From: Desulfuromonadales bacterium
Lineage (GTDB): Bacteria; Desulfobacterota; Desulfuromonadia; Geobacterales; Pseudopelobacteraceae
DNA length: 43,741 bases
NCBI GenBank assembly: GCA_016650295.1
Contig: JAENWA010000040.1
Span: 1 to 43,741, forward strand
Direction: 5' to 3'
This document shows positions 30,649 through 41,329 of the stretch, piece after piece (within the stretch, counting starts at the first letter, position 1; each line of letters starts with the position of its first letter). The notes under the pieces are model-generated. The model searched no databases. It saw only the letters and a program-made list of their open reading frames with translations, and was not told the DNA's origin. The translations under genes and the position numbers were made by a program.

Positions 30649-30705
30649 GATTTAGGTGGTTTTGTAGGAGCGCCCCCATGTGGGTGCCCCGCTTGAGGGG
30701 GTTTG

Positions 30706-33426
30706 ATGGAAGGGTATTGGAGATATTGGGGGAAGGCGGAGCGGGATGGGGTGGGGTATCACCTGTTGCCGTATCATTGTCTGGATGTGGCGGCGGTGGG
30801 AAGCGCCCTACTGGCTGCTGATGCGACATTACGAAAGAAATTCACGGATATTACCGGTCTTGGTGAATCTGTTGTGTGTCGGTGGCTTGTATTGCTTCTT
30901 GCACTGCATGATATCGGAAAATTTTCGGAGTGTTTTCAAAACCTGCGACCTGATTTGTTGGAGCAATTACAAGGTATTTCCAGCAGAAAGCAATACTTTG
31001 TCAGGCATGACAGGCTTGGAAATCTGTTTTTGAAATCAGCTCTGGAAAATGAAACGCTGACATTGCCACTCGAATTATCTTACGATGAATGGCAGGATGT
31101 TGTTATGGCCATGGTGCGGCCATTCACAGGGCATCACGGCGTTCCGCCAAGCATGATGGGTGACAACGGCTTGCCACTACGCGTCGCGAACTTTTTCTCA
31201 GAAAATGATATTTCGGCGGCGCGACTATTCGCTGAAGCGATCAGCAGATTGATTTGTGGAGACGGAACTGAATTGTCTCTTCCGTCCCCAGTTGAACTTG
31301 AAGCGATAATGAAAAAAGCATCCTGGATGATGGCCGGGTTTGTGGTTCTGTGCGACTGGATCGGCTCTAACAGCCGATGGTTTCCGTTATGCGAAGTGCC
31401 AATGAACCTTGAAGAATATTGGGGAAAACATGCTCTTCCCCAAGCTGACAAGGCAATCCGGGAGGCCGGGATCAATGCTGGGATTCCGTTAACTGAACTG
31501 TCCGGTTTTTCCGGACTGTTCCCGCATATCGCCACGCCGACGCCATTACAGAAATTTGTCGATAAATGTCCGATAGGCAATTCACCGCAATTATTCATCC
31601 TTGAAGATGTTACCGGTTCAGGTAAGACTGAGGCGGCGCTCCTACTGGCGAGTCGCTTGATGTCAGGTGGATGTGGCAAGGGCCTGTTTGTGGCGCTGCC
31701 AACTATGGCTACTTCAAATGCCATGTATGACCGCTTGATTGATAGCTACCAATTGCTGTTTAAGCCCGACTCTATACCTTCCCTCGTTTTGGCTCATGGC
31801 GCACGCCATCTCTCCGAAACTTTCATGGAATCGGTTGCAAGTCGTACAGACTATGATTCCGACGGAGAAACTGCTGTCGCTCAATGTTCATCGTGGCTTG
31901 CGGATAACCGCAAGAAAGCGCTGTTGGCGAATGTTGGCGTGGGGACGATTGATCAAGCCTTGCTGGCAATCCTGCCGACCCGGTTCCAATCCTTGCGGCT
32001 CTTCGGCTTATCAAGTCACATTCTGATCGTAGATGAAGTTCATGCCTATGACCCCTACATGAACAAGCTTCTGCAAAATCTGCTTTCCTTTCATGCCGCT
32101 CTTGGCGGCAGTGCAATACTCCTCTCAGCAACCTTGCCTACTCATGTCCGCCGCGATTTCATTGCCGCTTTTGCAAATGGCTGTGGAGATCAACGAAAGT
32201 CGGAGCTGCAAAGCCGTGACTATCCTCTGGCAACGGCATACAGCAAGGCGGATAGTGTGCGGGAAATCCCTGTGGAGGCCACATTGCAGCGGCACTGTAG
32301 GGTTGCGGTAGAACTGGTCGCTGACGAAAAAGAAGTGGTGAGGCAAATTGAGGAGGCAGCAAGCAAGGGAAGTTGTGTTTGCTGGATCAGAAATACCGTG
32401 CATGATGCTTTGGCTGGTTTTGCCAGTCTGAAAGAATCCATATCCGAGGAGAATTTGTTGTTGTTTCACGCCCGATTTGCCATGGGGGATCGTCTTGAAA
32501 TTGAGGAGACGGTAACGAAAACCTTTGGCAGGAAAAGCACGGCTCAAGAGCGATGTGGCAAAGTACTGATAGCAACCCAGGTTGTGGAGCAGTCCCTTGA
32601 TCTGGATTTTGATTTGCTGATTACCGACCTTGCCCCTATGGACCTGTTGATTCAGCGCGCGGGGCGCTTGCATCGACATCCGCGTGACGAGAAGGGAGAC
32701 CCGTTGTCAGAAGGAGCTGACCGGCGGGAGCCCGCCTGCATGCTTGTTCATGGTCCGCTACCAGAGGATGAAGCTGATGGGAACTGGTTTAAGTCGGTAT
32801 TTACAAAAGCTTCCTTCGTCTATCCGAGTCATGGTTGCCTTTGGCTGACGGCTCGGCTGCTGGCGGAAAAAAAAGAGTTGAAGATGCCGGACGACGCAAG
32901 AGAGTTGATTGAGGCTGCCTTTTCTGAAAGTGCCGACAAAATACCCGACCCGCTCCAGCAGAGAGACCAGCAGGCAAGCTCGCAATGCCAGGCCGATAGA
33001 TCGCTTGCCCATATCAACATGCTTAAACTGGATGAAGGTTATGAACCTACGATAAACCAATGGCGGGAAGACATGAAAACTCCGACCCGTTTGGGCGGTA
33101 TGGATACTACGGTTCGACTTGCCACGTGGGACGGCGCGACGCTTGTGCCGTGGTATCAGCATGTAAAATTCCCGTGGGACATGAGCCAGGTTGGTATACG
33201 TAGCAGCTTGGTGGATGCCGAAGCGGCTTTTACCGGTTCGTTGGGCGATGAAATTACCCGATTGAAAGAGTTGCTGCCTGACAAGGGTAAATGGTCGGTT
33301 CTGGTTCCGCTCCAGCTTGACGCAGATGGGCACTGGAGTGGCGAGGCGCTGAATAAGAGAAAAGAAGCCATGATGGTGAAATATGATCGGCAGACCGGTG
33401 TAACGGTTATCAAAAAGGAGGTTTAG
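30706..33426 (+). CDS. cas3: Cas3 helicase-nuclease (type I-E)
   Basis: 906 aa. An in-frame TTG is one codon upstream, but ATG 30706 sits behind GAGGGGG. N-terminal HD nuclease domain (about 1-240) with H19/H24 and the H68-D69 pair (LALHDIGKF). Helicase motif I at about 300 (DVTGSGKTE), DEVH box at about 441 (IVDEVHAYD), SATLP motif III, and motif VI QRAGRLHRH. Cas3 is recruited by Cascade to nick, unwind and degrade invading DNA. Its stop codon abuts the casA start codon, so they form one operon. Confidence 0.97.
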   Translation: MEGYWRYWGKAERDGVGYHLLPYHCLDVAAVGSALLAADATLRKKFTDITGLGESVVCRWLVLLLALHDIGKFSECFQNLRPDLLEQLQGISSRKQYFVRHDRLGNLFLKSALENETLTLPLELSYDEWQDVVMAMVRPFTGHHGVPPSMMGDNGLPLRVANFFSENDISAARLFAEAISRLICGDGTELSLPSPVELEAIMKKASWMMAGFVVLCDWIGSNSRWFPLCEVPMNLEEYWGKHALPQADKAIREAGINAGIPLTELSGFSGLFPHIATPTPLQKFVDKCPIGNSPQLFILEDVTGSGKTEAALLLASRLMSGGCGKGLFVALPTMATSNAMYDRLIDSYQLLFKPDSIPSLVLAHGARHLSETFMESVASRTDYDSDGETAVAQCSSWLADNRKKALLANVGVGTIDQALLAILPTRFQSLRLFGLSSHILIVDEVHAYDPYMNKLLQNLLSFHAALGGSAILLSATLPTHVRRDFIAAFANGCGDQRKSELQSRDYPLATAYSKADSVREIPVEATLQRHCRVAVELVADEKEVVRQIEEAASKGSCVCWIRNTVHDALAGFASLKESISEENLLLFHARFAMGDRLEIEETVTKTFGRKSTAQERCGKVLIATQVVEQSLDLDFDLLITDLAPMDLLIQRAGRLHRHPRDEKGDPLSEGADRREPACMLVHGPLPEDEADGNWFKSVFTKASFVYPSHGCLWLTARLLAEKKELKMPDDARELIEAAFSESADKIPDPLQQRDQQASSQCQADRSLAHINMLKLDEGYEPTINQWREDMKTPTRLGGMDTTVRLATWDGATLVPWYQHVKFPWDMSQVGIRSSLVDAEAAFTGSLGDEITRLKELLPDKGKWSVLVPLQLDADGHWSGEALNKRKEAMMVKYDRQTGVTVIKKEV

Positions 33427-35079
33427 ATGGAGTTCAATCTGATCGAGAAGCAATGGATTCCGGTATTACGGAGGGATGGGACTTCGGACTGGATCGCGCC
33501 GTATGAGGTGACGAAAGGCTTCGCCGAGAATCCGGTGGTGTCTCTTAATGCCCCTCGTCCGGATTTTAACGGGGCGTTGATTCAGTTCCTGATCGGGCTG
33601 GTGCAGACGGTAGCGGCTCCGCAGAACGGCACGGAATGGCGAAAAAAACTTGCTGAGCCGCCGACGCCGGAAGATTTGAAGGAAAAGTTCGCAACGGTTC
33701 GTCATGCCTTTGAGCTTGGCGGGGACGGGCCGCGGTTTATGCAGGATATGAACAGGTCTGAAGGGAAAGAATGGGATATTGCGAATCTTCTTCTTGAATA
33801 TCCCGGTGAAAATACTTTGAAGCTGGATAAAGATCATTTTGTGAAGAGGGGCGGAATCAGTTCTTTATGTCCGTCTTGCTGTGCAACTGCGCTGTTTACT
33901 TTGCAGGTAAATGCACCTTATGGAGGTGTTGGACACCAGTCATCACTTCGTGGTGGCGGGCCTCTTACGACTCTTGTATTAGGGCAAAAGGATATCCACG
34001 ACAATTTATGGGCGACAGTTTGGCTTAATGTTTTAGAAAAAAATTATTTTGAAAGCTCCTGCGCTAACGAAAATAAAACTGAAATTAAAGATGTATTCCC
34101 GTGGATGGCACCAACAAGGACAAGTCAACCGCATGGTGGAAGTGAAATGACACCAGAAGATGTACATCCTGCCCAAATGTTCTGGAGCACATCAAGGCGG
34201 ATTGTGTTGTTACCGGATGAGACTGGATTTACTGATTGCGATATCTGCGGTGCGTCAAATGTCAAAGGGATAAGTAAGTATAGAGCAAATACTTTCGGCT
34301 TTAGTTATGGAGGGGCATGGTTACATCCTCTTTCTCCGCACCGGCATGTAAACGGTGCTCCTTTTCCAGTTCAAGCAGAGCCGGGTGGTGTTACTTACAG
34401 GCACTGGCTAGGACTGGTCTTGCCAGACGCAGAGAAATCAGTTTTCCCTTCACAAACTGTGCATCGTTTCCAGGAAGTTAGGTCAAGATCTGATGAATCT
34501 TGCCGTGTTTGGGCGTTTGGTTATGACATGGATCCTAATCGTCCCACTACAACACGTTGTTGGTATGAATCTGAAATGCCACTCAGTTATATGCAAGATT
34601 CAATAAAGGGAGTCTATCAGGATTTATTGGCAGGTATGATTCGTGGGGCCAAGCAGGTTTCTGACAATACGCGGAGTGCGGTTAAAAAGGCTTGGTTCAA
34701 GCGTTCCGGAGATTTGAAAGGTGATATGACCTTTGTGGATAATTCATATTGGCAAGGGACAGAGCCAGCTTTCTATAATGCTTTGAAGAGCCTAAAAACT
34801 GCATTGGAATCTGGCGGTGATGGGTTGCAGGCAGTCAACGAATGGCATTCAGTTCTATGTGATGAAGCATTGAAATTGTTTGATCATCATGCGTGGAACG
34901 GTCCTGTTGAAGAAACCGACCCTAAACGAGTTGTTATTCAGCGTAGAGATTTGCAGAACTTTAATCGTGGCAAGAAGATAAAAGAGTTGCTTGGCTTGCC
35001 TGTCGAAGCGAAGACCACTGGTAAGAGTGCGAAGAAAAAGGAAATAAAACAACAGGAACAGACGGAGCTTGCATTCTGA
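33427..35079 (+). CDS. casA: CasA/Cse1 (Cas8e), Cascade large subunit
   Basis: 550 aa, starting directly after the cas3 stop with GGAGG inside the cas3 end. The N-terminus FNLIEKQWIPVLRRDG is the Cse1 signature. Two Cys pairs, CPSCC and CDICG, resemble the zinc site of the family. The GGVGHQSSLRGGGPL segment is well conserved. It recognises the PAM and recruits Cas3. The Lys-rich C-terminus (KSAKKKEIKQQEQ) is slightly longer than usual. Confidence 0.95.
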   Translation: MEFNLIEKQWIPVLRRDGTSDWIAPYEVTKGFAENPVVSLNAPRPDFNGALIQFLIGLVQTVAAPQNGTEWRKKLAEPPTPEDLKEKFATVRHAFELGGDGPRFMQDMNRSEGKEWDIANLLLEYPGENTLKLDKDHFVKRGGISSLCPSCCATALFTLQVNAPYGGVGHQSSLRGGGPLTTLVLGQKDIHDNLWATVWLNVLEKNYFESSCANENKTEIKDVFPWMAPTRTSQPHGGSEMTPEDVHPAQMFWSTSRRIVLLPDETGFTDCDICGASNVKGISKYRANTFGFSYGGAWLHPLSPHRHVNGAPFPVQAEPGGVTYRHWLGLVLPDAEKSVFPSQTVHRFQEVRSRSDESCRVWAFGYDMDPNRPTTTRCWYESEMPLSYMQDSIKGVYQDLLAGMIRGAKQVSDNTRSAVKKAWFKRSGDLKGDMTFVDNSYWQGTEPAFYNALKSLKTALESGGDGLQAVNEWHSVLCDEALKLFDHHAWNGPVEETDPKRVVIQRRDLQNFNRGKKIKELLGLPVEAKTTGKSAKKKEIKQQEQTELAF

Positions 35080-35103
35080 AGTCAATAACGGAAAGGAGGC
35101 TAC

Positions 35104-35616
35104 ATGAGCACAACATATTTGAAGTTTGAACATGATTCACCTGAAACGCAGGCGCTGTTCAGGTGGTGGCTGGCGTTGAATGACAATCGGGGCAACCGGG
35201 CGGAATTACGCCGCTGCTCGACTTTGGCCGAGGTCGCGTTCACACCGGCGTATCACCAGTTGCGTCTTGACCTCATTAAGTTTGGTGCAGTGAATGCCGA
35301 CTCTCTTGCATTGGTGGCAGGTCTGGCGGCACGGGTAAAAAGCAGCATTGCAGGGAATACCTTGGCGGAACAGATGGCTATACCAAAGGATTCGAGTTCA
35401 AAAGACGGCAAAGCCAAAGTGAGCGGCTTGCGTTTTCGACGTTTATTGAAGCTCAAGGAGAGAGAAGAGTTGTTTACCGCAATGGGGCGGGTTATTGCTT
35501 TGTTGGGTGGTGCTGTCAATCTGCAAAGCCTCGCTAATAGCGTTTATTATTGGAACGATAGAACCCGTAAGCAATGGGCTTTTGAATACTACACGAAATC
35601 ACCGTCAGAACAATAA
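35104..35616 (+). CDS. casB: CasB/Cse2 (Cas11e), Cascade small subunit
   Basis: 170 aa, AAAGGAGG site 24 bp after casA. All-helical, basic protein with a RAELRRCSTLAEV motif near the start and RFRRLLKLKEREELF in the second half, typical of Cse2. Two copies line the belly of Cascade and stabilise the non-target strand. Confidence 0.93.
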   Translation: MSTTYLKFEHDSPETQALFRWWLALNDNRGNRAELRRCSTLAEVAFTPAYHQLRLDLIKFGAVNADSLALVAGLAARVKSSIAGNTLAEQMAIPKDSSSKDGKAKVSGLRFRRLLKLKEREELFTAMGRVIALLGGAVNLQSLANSVYYWNDRTRKQWAFEYYTKSPSEQ

Positions 35617-35644
35617 CTCACTAAATCAAAAGGAGAATCTGAAC

Positions 35645-36709
35645 ATGAGTACTTTTATCCAACTTCATCTGCTGACTTCTTACCCGCCATCAAACCTGAA
35701 CCGTGACGATCTGGGCCGTCCCAAGACCGCCATCATGGGCGGAAAAACCCGTTTGCGTGTGTCTTCCCAGAGCCTGAAGCGTGCTTGGAGAACTTCAGAT
35801 CTTTTCGAGTCTGCTCTTGCAGGGCATATCGGTAAGCGCACCAAAAGAATGGGAATAGAGTTGTACAAAAGGCTCTGTGAGAAGGGCGTTGCCGATAGCA
35901 AAGCTAAGGAGTTTGCCAAGGAAATGGTTGCCTTTTTTGGGGCTACAGAGAGCGCCGAAAAGGACAAGCCCCTGAAAGAGCTGGAGTCATCACAGCTTGT
36001 TCATTTCAATCAATCTGAGATAGAGGCGTTACATGCACTGGCTGACAGAGTTGCTGCAGACGGGAAACTCGATAAGGATGAACTGAAAAAGCTGGTTGCA
36101 AAGCGGCATGATGTTGATATCTCAATGTTTGGACGAATGCTGACCGGCAAAGAAATCGTAAAAGTTACTGACGATCCGGAAGCTGCGGTTCAGGTGTCTC
36201 ATGCAGTGACCGTCCATGAAGTGGCGGTTGAGGACGATTACTTTACTGCCGTGGACGATTTGAACACTGGAGAGGATGACTTGGGGGCCGCGCATATCGG
36301 TGAGACGGAATTCGGCGCAGGGGTGTTTTATCTTTACCTTTGTATTGATCGAAATCTTTTGGTGGAGAATATGGGTGGTGACAAGGATCTTGCCAATAAG
36401 GCGTTGAAGGCATTGATCGAATCAGCCGCCAAGGTATCCCCAACCGGCAAGCAGAACAGTTTTGCCTCCCGCGCCCGTACGTCCTACCTGCTTGCCGAGA
36501 AGGGGAGAGATCAGCCTCGTTCCCTCTCGGTGGCCTTTTTGAAGCCGGTTCGTGGTGAGGATATTCTTGCACAGTCCATCAAAGAGCTGGAAAGACGCCG
36601 GGAAAATTTCGACAAGGTCTATGGCCCCTGTGCCGACGGCTTCAAGACAATGAACGCTGAAACCGGTGAGGGGAGTCTCGACAATATCTTAACCTTTGTG
36701 ACGGAGTAA
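35645..36709 (+). CDS. casC: CasC/Cas7e, Cascade backbone
   Basis: 354 aa from ATG 35645 (AAAAGGAG); the open frame extends upstream inside casB but has no start there. LLTSYPPSNLNRDDLGRPKTA is split around residue 20 and is followed by RLRVSSQSLKRAWR, the signature of Cas7/Cse4/CasC. RAMP fold; six copies coat the crRNA spacer. Located 28 bp after casB. Confidence 0.96.
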   Translation: MSTFIQLHLLTSYPPSNLNRDDLGRPKTAIMGGKTRLRVSSQSLKRAWRTSDLFESALAGHIGKRTKRMGIELYKRLCEKGVADSKAKEFAKEMVAFFGATESAEKDKPLKELESSQLVHFNQSEIEALHALADRVAADGKLDKDELKKLVAKRHDVDISMFGRMLTGKEIVKVTDDPEAAVQVSHAVTVHEVAVEDDYFTAVDDLNTGEDDLGAAHIGETEFGAGVFYLYLCIDRNLLVENMGGDKDLANKALKALIESAAKVSPTGKQNSFASRARTSYLLAEKGRDQPRSLSVAFLKPVRGEDILAQSIKELERRRENFDKVYGPCADGFKTMNAETGEGSLDNILTFVTE

Positions 36710-36714
36710 CGGCC

Positions 36715-37455
36715 ATGGCTGACTATCTTGTTTTCCACCTATACGGCCCGATGGCTGCGTGGGGTGACATTGCCGTCGGGGAGTATCGACCGAGCTTTGC
36801 CCACCCCTCCAAGTCGGCTATTATCGGCCTGCTTACAGCTGCTCTCGGCATCCGGCGCGACGAAGAAGAACAACAGAAAAACTTTGCCCAAGCCTGTTCC
36901 TTTGCCGTCCGTGTGGACGCCATGGGAACGTTGTTGCGTGATTATCATACAATCCAGGTCCCGTCATCCGGCACAGGGCGTAATCACCGAACATTCAACA
37001 CCAGAAAAGCTGAACTTGCAGAGAACAATTTGAACACGATCCTTTCCAGCCGGGATTATCGTTGCGACGCTGTCTATACCGTGGCTATTACACTCCGGGA
37101 GGATGCTCCTTGCAGTGTGAAAGACCTTGCAGAGGTTCTGCGCAAACCGGTTTTCACACTCTACCTGGGTCGCAAATCCTGCCCGCTGGCGTTTCCACTT
37201 TCTCCACTGGTCATTACTGCTGAATCAGTAAAGGAAGCCATGACCAAGGCCCCTGTGCCGGATGAGTTGCAGGACTTGATTCATGAGAAATCTAGTCTTG
37301 TCTATTGGGAAGGTGATCAGGGCGGGTACGAACGCGAACAGCTGATAACCCGCCGAGATGAGCCGATTAGCCGCAAGCGTTGGCAGTTCAGCGAGCGGAA
37401 AGAGAGCTTTTCCACAGTGCGCAGAGAGGAGGCAACGCCATGTACTTCAGCTTAA
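36715..37455 (+). CDS. casD: CasD/Cas5e
   Basis: 246 aa, starting 5 bp after casC. The N-terminus VFHLYGPMAAWGDIAVGEYR and PSKSAIIGLLTAALGI match Cas5e, which caps the 5' handle of crRNA. The C-terminus (RWQFSERKESFSTVRREE) is Arg/Glu rich. It overlaps casE by 16 bp. Confidence 0.95.
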   Translation: MADYLVFHLYGPMAAWGDIAVGEYRPSFAHPSKSAIIGLLTAALGIRRDEEEQQKNFAQACSFAVRVDAMGTLLRDYHTIQVPSSGTGRNHRTFNTRKAELAENNLNTILSSRDYRCDAVYTVAITLREDAPCSVKDLAEVLRKPVFTLYLGRKSCPLAFPLSPLVITAESVKEAMTKAPVPDELQDLIHEKSSLVYWEGDQGGYEREQLITRRDEPISRKRWQFSERKESFSTVRREEATPCTSA

Positions 37456-38192
37456 TACGCCTGCGGCGTGACCTGTCGCCAAAGGATATTGTTTCGTTAG
37501 GTCGTAGTGACGGCTACAGTCTGCACAAAATGGTTTGGGATATTTTCAGCGATGGCCCTGACCGGAAGCGTGATTTTCTCTACCGCTTTGAAAAGGTAAA
37601 CAGTTTGCCGACGTACTATACGATATCTGAGCGTGCGCCTGACGATACGACAGGGTTATGGGAAATCAGCTCAAAGCCATACCTGCCAAAGCTTGCTCAG
37701 GGAGATCGGCTGGCATTTAAACTCCGGGCAAATCCGATTCAATCGGCAAAGCAAGAACGCACTGCCGAGGAGCTTGCGGCATGGCAAAAGAGTCGAGCGG
37801 AACGCGGTTTGAAGCAGAACAGATGGACAGAAAAGGTAATTCGCCATGACGTGGTGATGGAGGCAAAAACAAGAATTGACTTCAAGAATTTGCCGGAAGA
37901 AAAGCGACCTTATGTAGCGACGCTTATTCAGGAAGCCGGTCTTGGTTGGCTCAAATCGCGGGAAAATGAGTATGGATTTTCTGTTGTGCAATCAGCCACA
38001 AGAGCCGATGGGTATTGCCAACACAGGCTTTTCAAAGGCAAAAGCGCAAAGCCGGTTACATTCAGCACACTGGAGTTTGACGGTATCTTGACGGTTACGG
38101 AACCGGATAGTTTTATTACGAAATGTCTTATTGACGGCATCGGTCCGGCCAAAGGCTTCGGCTGCGGGTTGATGCTGGTGCGGCGAGTGTGA
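37440..38192 (+). CDS. casE: CasE/Cas6e, crRNA-processing endoribonuclease
   Basis: 250 aa from ATG 37440 behind GAGGAGG, inside the end of casD. The N-terminal RAMP segment MYFSLIRLRRDLSP and the C-terminal Gly-rich loop GIGPAKGFGCGLMLVRR are typical. It cuts the repeat hairpin (CCCCGC/GCGGGG) of the array transcript and stays bound to the 3' handle. In ordinary I-E loci cas1 follows directly; here a 1.9-kb cassette intervenes, starting 3 bp after the casE stop. Confidence 0.95.
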   Translation: MYFSLIRLRRDLSPKDIVSLGRSDGYSLHKMVWDIFSDGPDRKRDFLYRFEKVNSLPTYYTISERAPDDTTGLWEISSKPYLPKLAQGDRLAFKLRANPIQSAKQERTAEELAAWQKSRAERGLKQNRWTEKVIRHDVVMEAKTRIDFKNLPEEKRPYVATLIQEAGLGWLKSRENEYGFSVVQSATRADGYCQHRLFKGKSAKPVTFSTLEFDGILTVTEPDSFITKCLIDGIGPAKGFGCGLMLVRRV

Positions 38193-38195
38193 ACC

Positions 38196-38228
38196 AAAGG
38201 CGGGCGAACACAAGGTATTGCCCCTACG
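38196..38228 (+). repeat. 33-bp REP-like repeat, left flank of the DUF1016 cassette
   Basis: AAAGGCGGGCGAACAC followed by AAGGTATTGCCCCTACG. Identical to 40058-40090 except one T/C. The two direct copies bracket the segment that separates casE from cas1. The ends GGGCGA and TTGCCC/TCGCCC can pair. Confidence 0.8.
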
Positions 38229-38288
38229 TGATCAGAATCAAAAACCGGACGGTTCGATAGGCCTGCCCGAACGGACATAAATAATAAA

Positions 38289-38673
38289 AAAATTCTGCCG
38301 GCAGAATTTTGGGCTTAACTGTCTGAATTACAACAAATCACCTCTGAAAAATGCCCATTTTTTTGGAGGTGGAACATTAAAAACAGAAATTTCCGGACGT
38401 CCGGAAATCGTGGTAAGTAGCTTATTTATAACAATTGTGCCTCAAAAAACTGCCATTTTTTTAGTGAGTGTTTTATGTGACACAGGGGGGTGGCAAAATG
38501 CCACCACCCTTTCCATGGGTGAGTACAATTTGTACCGATCTTCGTATCTCAGGTTATGGCAAAATCATCAAGGCGGGCGCGGCAAGCAGCGCCCTTACGA
38601 ATGCGGCGGGATGAATGAAGGAGGGGGACAATTTGTCCCCTCCGTTGAAATGAACTGTCCGGAAAAACCGGAC
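38289..38673. repeat. Palindrome island upstream of the DUF1016 nuclease
   Basis: At least seven inverted repeats in under 400 bp, mostly perfect and with different sequences: AAAATTCTGCC/GGCAGAATTTT (38289-38310), a nested CACCTC/GAGGTG hairpin (38339-38371), ATTTCCGGAC/GTCCGGAAAT (38389-38408), GGTGGCA/TGCCACC (38489-38505), GTACAA-T-TTGTAC (38523-38535), GGGGACAA-T-TTGTCCCC (38624-38640) and GTCCGG/CCGGAC (38657-38673). No gene is present in 38229-38807. Function unknown. Confidence 0.7.
38570..38601 (+). repeat. Diverged REP-like repeat inside the palindrome island
   Basis: AAGGCGGGCG then a different centre (CGGCAAGCAG) then CGCCCTTACGA: both ends follow the 33-bp repeat, the middle does not. 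Confidence 0.55.
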
Positions 38674-38807
38674 GGTTGGGATCAGGTCCGTGACGTTTTG
38701 TCACGAGCTGCTTGAGTTGTCCGATATTTTCGTACAACTGATCGTTTTTCCAGTTCAAGCGATAGGCGTGAGTGTCGGAAGTAAAGTGACATTGCAGGGG
38801 GGCAAAC

Positions 38808-39977
38808 ATGTCGGATAGAAAAATTTCCGGTAATAAACAGTCCGCACCGGCCAGCAGCTACGATGCCATGCTGTCCGGCGTGGTCGAGCTGCTGGAGCAG
38901 GCCAGGCGGACGTCTGCGCGGGCGGTAAATACGATCATGACCGCCACCTATTGGGAAATCGGGCGGCGGATTGTGGAGTTTGAGCAAGGAGGAAAGCGGC
39001 GGGCGGAATATGGTGCTTCTTTGTTGAAACGCCTATCTGCAGATCTGAAAACAAGATTGGGGAGAGGCTTTTCGGAGAGAAACCTTGAACAGATGCGCCT
39101 GTTTTATCAGGGTTGGCCAATTTCGCAGACGATTTCTGCGAAATCCGCCAACAAGATATCGCAGATGGTCTCTGCGAAATTCGAGGGCTCAATAATCCAG
39201 GCGTCGTCTGGACAATTCTCCTCAAGTGACATCGCCGCCCAATTCCCGCTCCCCTGGTCACAATATGTCCGCCTCATGTCGGTCAAAAACCCGGACGCAC
39301 GCGCATTCTACGAGGCCGAATCCTTGCGAGGCGGCTGGACAATTCCACAACTCGACCGCCAAATCTCCACTCTCTTCTATGAACGAACCGCCCTTTCCCG
39401 CAACAAGGCTGCCATGCTGAAAAAGGGTGAAAAAACACTACCGGAGGATGCTGTTACCCCTGAAGGAGAGATCCGCGATCCTCTGGTGCTGGAGTTTCTT
39501 GGATTGAAGGACGAATATTCAGAAAATGACCTTGAAGAGGCTTTGATCCTGCATTTGGAGAGCTTTCTGCTTGAACTCGGTGGTGACTTCACCTTTGTTG
39601 GCCGGCAGCGGCGCTTGAGAATCGGTGATTCATGGTACCGGGTTGATCTGCTTTTCTTCCATCGTCGTTTGCGTTGTCTGGTTGTGATCGATCTGAAACT
39701 GGGCAAGTTTAGCCACGCCGATGCCGGACAGATGCATATGTATCTGAACTATGCCAGCGAACATTGGACGCACCCGGAAGAAAATCCGCCGGTCGGGCTT
39801 ATCCTCTGCGCCCAGAAAGATAATGCCTTGGCTCACTATGCCCTGGAGAACCTGCCCAACAAGGTTTTGGCAGCGGAGTACAAGATGGCCTTGCCTGATG
39901 AAAAGGCTTTGGTGGCAGAGATCGACAAGACTCGTAACGAGCTGGAAGCACGACTACGGAAAAGTTATGAGGGATAG
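38808..39977 (+). CDS. DUF1016/YhcG-family PD-(D/E)xK nuclease inserted in the cas operon
   Basis: 389 aa with GGGGGG eight bases before ATG. N-terminal DUF1016_N domain (about 17-175: ARAVNTIMTATYWEIGRRIVE, GFSERNLEQMRLFY, WSQYVRLM). C-terminal nuclease domain with RVDLLFFHRRL then VVIDLKLGKF, giving the D…DxK core, and GQMHMYLNY. The family is widespread in bacteria and thought to be DNA nucleases, often in mobile or defence contexts; its role is not established. Residues about 104-127 are a 12-residue tandem repeat (ISQTISAKSANK, ISQMVSAKFEGS) coded by palindromic DNA. It is not a known part of I-E systems. Confidence 0.88.
   Translation: MSDRKISGNKQSAPASSYDAMLSGVVELLEQARRTSARAVNTIMTATYWEIGRRIVEFEQGGKRRAEYGASLLKRLSADLKTRLGRGFSERNLEQMRLFYQGWPISQTISAKSANKISQMVSAKFEGSIIQASSGQFSSSDIAAQFPLPWSQYVRLMSVKNPDARAFYEAESLRGGWTIPQLDRQISTLFYERTALSRNKAAMLKKGEKTLPEDAVTPEGEIRDPLVLEFLGLKDEYSENDLEEALILHLESFLLELGGDFTFVGRQRRLRIGDSWYRVDLLFFHRRLRCLVVIDLKLGKFSHADAGQMHMYLNYASEHWTHPEENPPVGLILCAQKDNALAHYALENLPNKVLAAEYKMALPDEKALVAEIDKTRNELEARLRKSYEG
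39120..39191 (+). repeat. In-frame tandem 36-bp palindromic repeats within the DUF1016 gene
   Basis: ATTTCGCAG (39120-39128), 7-base loop, CTGCGAAAT (39136-39144); then TCGCAG (39159-39164), 7-base loop, CTGCGA (39172-39177). The units are offset by 36 bp, exactly 12 codons, so the reading frame is kept. Confidence 0.8.
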
Positions 39978-40057: not shown

Positions 40058-40090
40058 AAAGGCGGGCGAACACAAGGTATCGCCCCTACG
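40058..40090 (+). repeat. 33-bp REP-like repeat, right flank of the DUF1016 cassette
   Basis: AAAGGCGGGCGAACAC followed by AAGGTATCGCCCCTACG, in the same direction as 38196-38228 with one mismatch. It ends 26 bp before the cas1 start codon. Confidence 0.8.

Positions 40091-40116: not shown

Positions 40117-41329
<1,213 letters not shown>

Follow-up and report, generated by a model that had tools for sequence, protein, structure and literature searches.

A DUF1016/YhcG nuclease gene in a type I-E cas operon and in-frame palindromes that covary with predicted DNA-reading residues of its family

The cas operon and the palindrome island

The window, meaning the whole 43,741-nucleotide stretch analysed here, is one entire contig of a 123-contig, 4.07-Mb Desulfuromonadales genome with a completeness of 99.1%. 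It carries a type I-E operon in the order cas3-cse1-cse2-cas7-cas5-cas6e, a gene for a DUF1016/YhcG nuclease of 389 aa, cas1, cas2 and the CRISPR array, and a palindrome island (38229-38807) occupies the gap between cas6e and the nuclease gene (Table 1). In Desulfuromonadaceae bacterium STB_15 (locus L104), a DUF1016 gene also lies immediately 5' of cas1, the ORFs ahead of it fit the cas operon by size and order, and cas1, cas2 and the array align to the window. A 166-aa ORF (L104:9163-9663) is flanked there by the cas6e-like ORF and DUF1016 in the orthologous operon. The window contained no tRNA gene and no Rfam match at the gathering threshold, and comparison of the island with plasmids gave no match.

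Table 1. Features of the window (positions of the forward strand) and of E. coli yhcG referred to in the text
Feature	Position	Strand	Basis or remark
cas3, cse1, cse2, cas7, cas5, cas6e (type I-E operon)	30703..38192	+	Pfam
REP-like repeat 3' of cas6e	38196..38228	+	by eye; sister copies at 38570 and 40058
87-bp element copy 1, palindrome head 38289-38310 and conserved tail	38287..38373	+	model R1, E 2e-13
87-bp element copy 2, palindrome head 38389-38408 and tail	38386..38471	+	model R1, E 1.6e-11
Palindrome of GGGTGGCAAAATGCCACC type	38484..38510	.	hairpin scan; single copy in 382-kb sample
Palindrome GTACAATTTGTAC	38523..38535	.	hairpin scan; single copy in 382-kb sample
REP-like repeat; main L104 homology starts here	38570..38599	+	comparison with L104 and 382-kb sample
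Palindrome GGGGACAATTTGTCCCC, missing at the equivalent L104 place	38624..38640	.	hairpin scan, L104 comparison
Three weak palindromes (38657-38673, 38689-38705, 38715-38739)	38657..38739	.	last one identical in L104
DUF1016/YhcG-family nuclease gene, 389 aa	38808..39977	+	Pfam PF17761, PF06250; PADLOC PDC-S02
Codons 66-102: helix 66-84, turn, helix 90-102, HTH-like; predicted reading residues 89, 91, 94, 95	39003..39113	+	AlphaFold models, covariation
Intragenic palindrome 1 (putative own site), centre 39132	39120..39144	+	2/300 synonymous shuffles as good
Intragenic palindrome 2, arms as in palindrome 1 with one mismatch	39157..39179	+	sequence comparison
Codons 151-180: predicted second reading surface, residues 151, 179, 180	39258..39347	+	covariation
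PD-(D/E)XK nuclease domain	39471..39905	+	D280, L296, K297 invariant in 58 proteins
REP-like repeat ahead of cas1	40058..40090	+	sister of the 38570 copy
cas1 and cas2	40117..41329	+	Pfam
E. coli K-12 yhcG with three in-frame palindromes in tandem, the arms of one being 15 bp long	L352:7828-8955		
Palindrome by E. coli allele: K-12 YhcG AATTCGCCAGACAGTGTCTGGCGAATT; R91/W94 allele AATTGTGCAGACACTGTCTGCACAATT			

The window protein exceeds the curated cut-offs of both Pfam domains of the family, PF17761 (E 1.6e-38, 132.4 bits against a cut-off of 32.8) and PF06250 (E 7.5e-57, 192 bits against 32.5). The PADLOC library of known and candidate defence proteins lists the family as PDC-S02, and relatives were found on viral contigs at 63 loci. 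A search of NCBIfam with four DUF1016 proteins gave no match, and a PDB sequence search returned three matches with E values of 0.23-0.89 only. Across 58 aligned DUF1016 proteins, D295 is kept in 90% or more and D280, L296 and K297 are invariant; the catalytic role of these residues is one that we take from the family's known motif. The second DUF1016 gene of this genome (L022 (C68):11542-11644) carries three intragenic palindromes, and small ORFs upstream of it look toxin-antitoxin-like by eye. YhcG was predicted to be a PD-(D/E)XK nuclease in 2005, with an N-domain described as mainly alpha-helical and without a known match (PMC1189080), and synthetic lethality has been reported for a yhcG deletion combined with weakened dnaB, dnaN and parE (PMC2672614). 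Our literature search, which most subscription papers lay beyond, found no paper giving a function for YhcG, and intragenic palindromes or a DNA-reading N-domain of DUF1016 proteins were not reported in the mostly open-access literature that it covered.

Eleven hairpins scoring at least 6 lie in the island, whereas 300 dinucleotide shuffles gave 1.35 on average and never more than 5, and two score at least 10, which none of the shuffles produced. The perfect or one-base-centre palindromes include 38289-38310 (22 bp), 38389-38408 (20 bp), 38523-38535 (13 bp) and 38624-38640 (17 bp). The initial annotation had counted seven inverted repeats in less than 400 bp; the palindromes are indeed present, over a span of about 450 bp (38289-38739). 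In a 382-kb sample, made up of the window and 20 further stretches of its genome, no 580-bp segment outside the CRISPR array is denser than the island (five hairpins scoring at least 7, runner-up four). Its description of the repeats as unlike one another, and not copies of one repeat, holds only in part, since 38289-38310 and 38389-38408 head two tandem copies of one 87-bp element, the REP-like repeat at 38570-38599 resembles that at 40058-40090, and the palindromes at 38523 and 38624 have a common core, ACAATTTGT. We use the label REP by analogy. As the window has one palindrome that L104 lacks and L104 one that the window lacks, the island palindromes turn over.

The 87-bp element combines a variable palindrome head with a conserved tail (GTAAC....TG.TTaTAACA...), and in several copies the head is altered on both sides. 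A covariance model built from 11 copies (R1) gave at least 29 matches in the genome at E <= 0.0035, these 11 among them, and 1-3 copies in each of eight relatives (loci L034-L062 and L064-L075, this genome's included); copy numbers are lower bounds because 114-150 first-look candidates were scored per genome. Of 39 genomes searched (this one and 38 relatives), nine have the element, and all nine belong to the 19 with DUF1016 (p 0.0004, computed ignoring kinship). Two of the three DUF1016 genes of this genome lie within 1.7 kb of a copy (p about 0.003), and 4 of the 12 copies in relatives lie within 1 kb of DUF1016, with 0.02 expected: all three copies in one relative (G003) and the sole copy in another (G016) adjoin a DUF1016 gene, and the eight copies in six other genomes are not beside one. 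The adjacency is real. Short dispersed repeats headed by a palindrome are typical of REP elements, which are associated with RAYT transposases, and the 87-bp element is alike in this respect. It differs in its neighbours, as copies lie away from the Y1 transposase genes (none near any of the eight listed of nine), which led us to reject a RAYT-borne REP, and close to two of three DUF1016 genes. We likewise rejected the element as a DUF1016 site, its heads being, by eye, unlike the intragenic palindromes of neighbouring DUF1016 genes. Some heads resemble by eye the NBS consensus published for Noc (PMC7383237).

A palindrome excess around other DUF1016 genes, which the initial annotation would have led one to expect, does not hold for the flanks. 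Generic hairpins beside 77 DUF1016 genes occurred at 0.66/kb (0-150 bp) and 1.08/kb (150-300 bp) against 0.70/kb beyond 4 kb, so that flanks are no denser than distant DNA. Downstream of the genes, palindromes scoring at least 8 showed no excess (1/74 versus 36/422 controls). With flanks shorter than 200 bases left out, odd-centred palindromes scoring at least 9 were more frequent from -300 to +60 of the start codon (10/76 DUF1016 genes versus 5/407 controls); of these ten, at least that of L131 belongs to a truncated ORF and probably lies inside the gene, and a further two are located just past the called start. The island palindromes do not contain the intragenic site of the window's own nuclease gene, in a search allowing up to two mismatches. 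The island is a separate matter from the intragenic palindromes and consists mostly of dispersed repeats in an operon gap. A palindrome-generating element, also envisaged for it, has nothing in its favour except the gain and loss of palindrome units.

Palindromes inside DUF1016 genes and covarying protein residues

Inside the nuclease gene, the palindromes that had been noticed at the outset were confirmed at two places (Table 1), and here the suspected link between palindromes and the nuclease stands: they are recurrent, exceed synonymous shuffles and controls, and covary with the protein, an association that the island, which lacks the gene's own site, does not share. In a scan of 30 DUF1016 loci, from this genome and from related ones, most genes carried palindromes, mostly of differing sequence, and the majority of the bacterial, archaeal and viral-contig DUF1016 genes analysed do so too. 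The in-frame palindrome has the consensus AATT-nnnn-CAGACA-S-TGTCTG-nnnn-AATT and usually lies at about nt 280-420. In 80 named bacterial and archaeal loci, a best hairpin scoring at least 10 was present in 35 of 77 DUF1016 ORFs (one of 78 was left out because it contains N), compared with 12 of 424 control genes taken from those loci and with 36 of 1540 synonymous shuffles, a large excess over both for the genes themselves. Tested gene by gene against synonymous shuffles, 38 of 93 non-redundant genes gave p <= 0.01 and 58 reached 0.05, the set having been obtained by removing one hit and two fragments and then 11 near-duplicates of 104. Several thresholds were set after a first look at the 30 loci; the viral set serves as the independent check on the palindromes and the hold-out genes as that on the code described below. 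On viral contigs, once ORFs shorter than 750 nt and a further 11 redundant ones had been removed, 22 of 41 DUF1016 genes gave p <= 0.01 versus 1 of 75 controls, and 19 versus none scored at least 12.

The palindromes are also fixed relative to the reading frame. Their centre is codon base 1 in 65 of 66 genes (those kept from the 93) and in 47 of 48 held-out genes, and for 55 of the 93 genes the top-scoring hairpin is centred on a single base; 38 of 242 DUF1016 genes have no in-phase palindrome scoring at least 8. At variable positions 6-9, several base pairs are used and are complementary in 89 to 101 of 101 genes, a near-perfection due in part to selection, because pair counts use selected best palindromes; the fair tests are the synonymous shuffles and control genes. 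AlphaFold confidence is lowest over the residues that the palindrome encodes (pLDDT <50 at 108-130 and 111-131 in the models), which suggests that the protein would hardly need them. Across its genome, the window palindrome occurs solely in its own gene at up to two mismatches, and at three it has two matches, equal to a reversed control. Elsewhere within 10 kb, a gene's own palindrome recurred in 3 of 51 cases at up to three mismatches against 21 of 2550 for foreign ones, a weak excess on which we place no weight, and between -500 and +90 own-site matches at the same tolerance were found in 6 of 101 genes, three being the palindrome itself (foreign, 58/3400). A matching palindrome lies at the gene start at five loci, L153, L155, L157, L179 and L183, the first three being close relatives and the L157 match having been made by eye. 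The sequences support selection on these family-wide palindromes at the DNA level.

To compare the palindromes with the proteins, the variable bases were set against every well-covered protein column, with palindrome codons masked. Bases are numbered outwards from the palindrome centre. Among 94 genes (of 101, those retained by position), residue 91 covaries with base 7 (d7; z 7.4) and residue 151 with base 3 (d3; z 7.8). The pairings are specific: arginine at residue 91 goes with G at d7 (32/33); at residue 94, glutamate goes with C at d8 (19/21) and F, Y or W with T (20/20); at residue 151, serine goes with A at d3 (62/64) and glycine with C (10/10). Arginine with G, glutamate with C and an aromatic residue with T read like textbook contacts, as far as base-residue pairings in sequence can suggest contacts. 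In pairs of genes of 45-90% identity, none of the 313 columns outranks residue 91, 94, 95 or 151 at the base to which that residue is matched. With training and hold-out genes pooled (204 genes), nine cells exceed z 4 at bases 2-9, and all nine fall at residues 89, 91, 94, 95, 151, 179 and 180, which are ordered along the site as 151/179/180 (bases 2-3), 95 (base 5), 89 (base 6), 91 (base 7) and 94 (bases 8-9). Residues 90, 92, 93 and 96-102 reach z 2.6 at most. Linkage rather than reading is therefore disfavoured as the cause of the covariation, because the residues between the signals are silent and 151, 179 and 180 lie elsewhere in the gene.

In 89 non-overlapping sister pairs, from the same pooled genes, 91/d7, 95/d6 and 151/d3 rank first of 313 columns, 94/d8 and 179/d3 second and 95/d5 fifth; base 7 is altered in 26 of the 39 pairs with unlike residues at 91 versus 5 of the 50 with like ones. 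The orthologs at the cas locus are an example, as the window gene with R91/E94 has G at d7 and C at d8, and its L104 counterpart with R91/Y94 has G and T. For the hold-out, 34 of 82 genes were removed (>70% identity), and five of the 48 left were dropped by score or position, leaving 43 palindromes. Residue 91 predicted d7 correctly in 33 of 43 (baseline 18; best of 2000 shuffles 27), residue 179 predicted d3 in 35 (baseline 15; best shuffle 22) and residue 151 predicted d3 in 30 (baseline 15; best shuffle 21). The other pairs did less well: 95 to d5 was right in 31 of 43 (baseline 24), under the best shuffle of 32; 94 to d8 in 29, over the best shuffle of 27 and under the majority base at 32; and 95 to d6 in 22, under both the majority base (23) and the best shuffle (25). 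The larger part of the code thus carries over to the held-out genes, and the code is not strict.

Predicted fold and E. coli yhcG

The full model of the protein had nucleases (2vld, EndoMS, Can2) as its best Foldseek matches, in a table without aligned ranges that has little bearing on the N-domain. The N-domain alone gave weak matches (E >= 2.8), with several Noc and ParB entries in their number, and on VIA-align superposition of these matches, Noc bound to NBS came top (Z 8.0 over 100 residues, 3.1 A), followed by four ParB entries at Z 6.8-7.2, three of which are one M. xanthus protein, with the next row at 3.0. The model of the N-domain is thus similar to the domain with which ParB and Noc bind DNA, and a Z of about 8 may reflect a common helical arrangement. 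ParB reads parS by a recognition helix and two further helices, which fits the two DUF1016 surfaces suggested by covariation, and the likeness would extend to a two-fold symmetric site at which few residues switch specificity (PMC7383237). DUF1016 differs in its nuclease domain, of a kind that ParB is not known to have, and in its site, parS varying far less. ParB and Noc do not act mainly as repressors, and one parS of B. subtilis lies within spo0J.

In E. coli, yhcG was matched in 4417 of 5426 genomes, in 3310 of them across 80% or more of the gene, and every match is chromosomal, so the gene is largely kept. Alleles with K91/R94 have AATTCGCCAGACAnTGTCTGGCGAATT as their first palindrome, with C at d7 and G at d8 (in K-12 with one mismatch). 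The WP2-S18 yhcG, 91.6% identical in DNA and likewise placed between gltD and nanQ, encodes R91/W94 and its palindrome has G at d7 and T at d8, the change that the code predicts. Other palindromes in E. coli alleles carry different variable bases, among them the second and third of K-12, which are also longer. Alleles of 1128, 1113, 1089 and 1050 nt have gained or lost palindrome units in frame, and a 39-nt deletion fuses the left half of one palindrome to the right half of the next. Some genomes have a broken gene: in BL21(DE3) (L353:2709-3113), yhcG is truncated inside the third palindrome with a transposase ORF adjoining, and other E. coli end at this same point or carry IS insertions. A reported antisense transcript, G0-10703, overlaps the 5' region of yhcG by 128 bp (PMC7967276).

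Possible roles of a nuclease predicted to read its own gene

We consider it very probable, from the sequences, that the DUF1016 protein binds the palindrome in its own gene. What the sequences support is selection on the palindromes, covariation of residues and bases, and prediction of held-out genes; physical binding, dimerisation, repression and the final cleavage target are what we infer from there. DUF1016/YhcG would be a nuclease whose DNA-reading domain is of helix-turn-helix type, has two reading surfaces and folds like that of ParB/Noc, and its dimer would bind one or a few in-frame palindromes of its own coding sequence, within the stretch encoding a disordered loop. Bound there, it would block transcription of its own gene, in some genes also through a matching palindrome by the start, and so provide a brake on a dangerous nuclease that is portable, promoter-independent and moves with the gene. 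A shift in specificity would change reading residues and palindrome jointly, and old palindromes would persist as relics or drop out in frame. Such a self-brake is the simplest use of an own-gene palindrome, and we lean slightly towards autoregulation as the main role of self-binding. Among the points against it are that most genes lack a matching palindrome by the start and that repression alone does not account for the invariant catalytic residues.

Those residues, conserved over the 58 proteins, would be at home in a nuclease that cuts its own palindromes under some condition. The cell or element would then destroy itself, or recombination would spread the gene and reshuffle it. The in-frame gain and loss of units among the E. 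coli alleles, the fusion deletion and the relatives on viral contigs also point that way. We nevertheless regard self-cutting as unlikely: the gene is largely kept in E. coli and always chromosomal, loss between short repeats is what ordinary slippage produces too, and a constitutive cut in one's own gene would presumably be selected out. The listing of the family by PADLOC, its place in the cas operon here and in L104, and the confinement of matching sites in this genome to the gene itself would suit a nuclease tethered inactive on its own gene and freed when host DNA is lost or broken down, for example by phage, the gene acting as sensor; plain autoregulation fits these facts equally, and we find such a guard quite improbable. 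More broadly, it is conceivable, if rather doubtful, that DUF1016 proteins are nucleases whose gene carries the address that its product reads, the two being rewritten together, and that the enzyme sits on its own gene, or cuts it, as long as nothing disturbs the host DNA.

The palindromes are transcribed and their pairs covary like RNA stems, so a hairpin in the mRNA that the protein binds or cuts has to be weighed against reading of the DNA. Mismatches at distances 2-12 comprise 5 G-T against 25 A-C, and therefore give no sign of G-U tolerance, with coding position biases bearing on these counts; the best hairpin has a one-base centre in most genes, the R:G and aromatic:T pairs with a helix-turn-helix-like helix suggest double-stranded DNA, and we consider the RNA reading very unlikely. 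Selfish coding palindromes, inserted where a loop tolerates them and of no use to the gene that carries them, would explain units that are in frame, in a disordered loop and variable in number. Position and codon phase are conserved in one family across phyla, the palindromes covary with the predicted recognition residues, and the window's intragenic palindrome is not dispersed in its genome, all of which leaves that explanation with almost no credence. Rickettsia palindromic elements (PMC4316617) and PARCELs (PMC2996958) resemble the DUF1016 palindromes in being palindromic DNA that genes translate in frame. They occur in many unrelated genes or in proteins that bear repeats, whereas those of DUF1016 belong to one family and one region and are matched to putative reading residues; dispersal of the Rickettsia kind was not found for the window palindrome outside its own gene (up to two mismatches, own genome).

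A close parallel to autoregulation through a site in the coding sequence is C.Kpn2I, a restriction-modification controller that binds within its own coding region and stalls RNA polymerase (PMC6237814). Both are nuclease-linked DNA-binding proteins with a site in their own gene, the binding being predicted for DUF1016. C.Kpn2I differs in being a separate regulator, whereas in DUF1016 reader and nuclease would be one protein, and the DUF1016 site is a long palindrome at a place conserved family-wide that covaries with the protein, with repression as the proposed outcome.

If self-addressed reading is true, a DUF1016 gene would be toxin, brake and sensor together, whether bacterial, archaeal or phage-borne, and its code from residue to base could be read. 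DUF1016 genes are naturally diversified, matched protein-DNA pairs for studying the evolution of specificity, and they caution that a strong DNA-level signal can sit in coding sequence. For YhcG, carrying a nuclease prediction since 2005 (PMC1189080) and matched in 4417 of 5426 E. coli genomes, the family-wide site within the gene and its residue-to-base code make the function directly testable in K-12.
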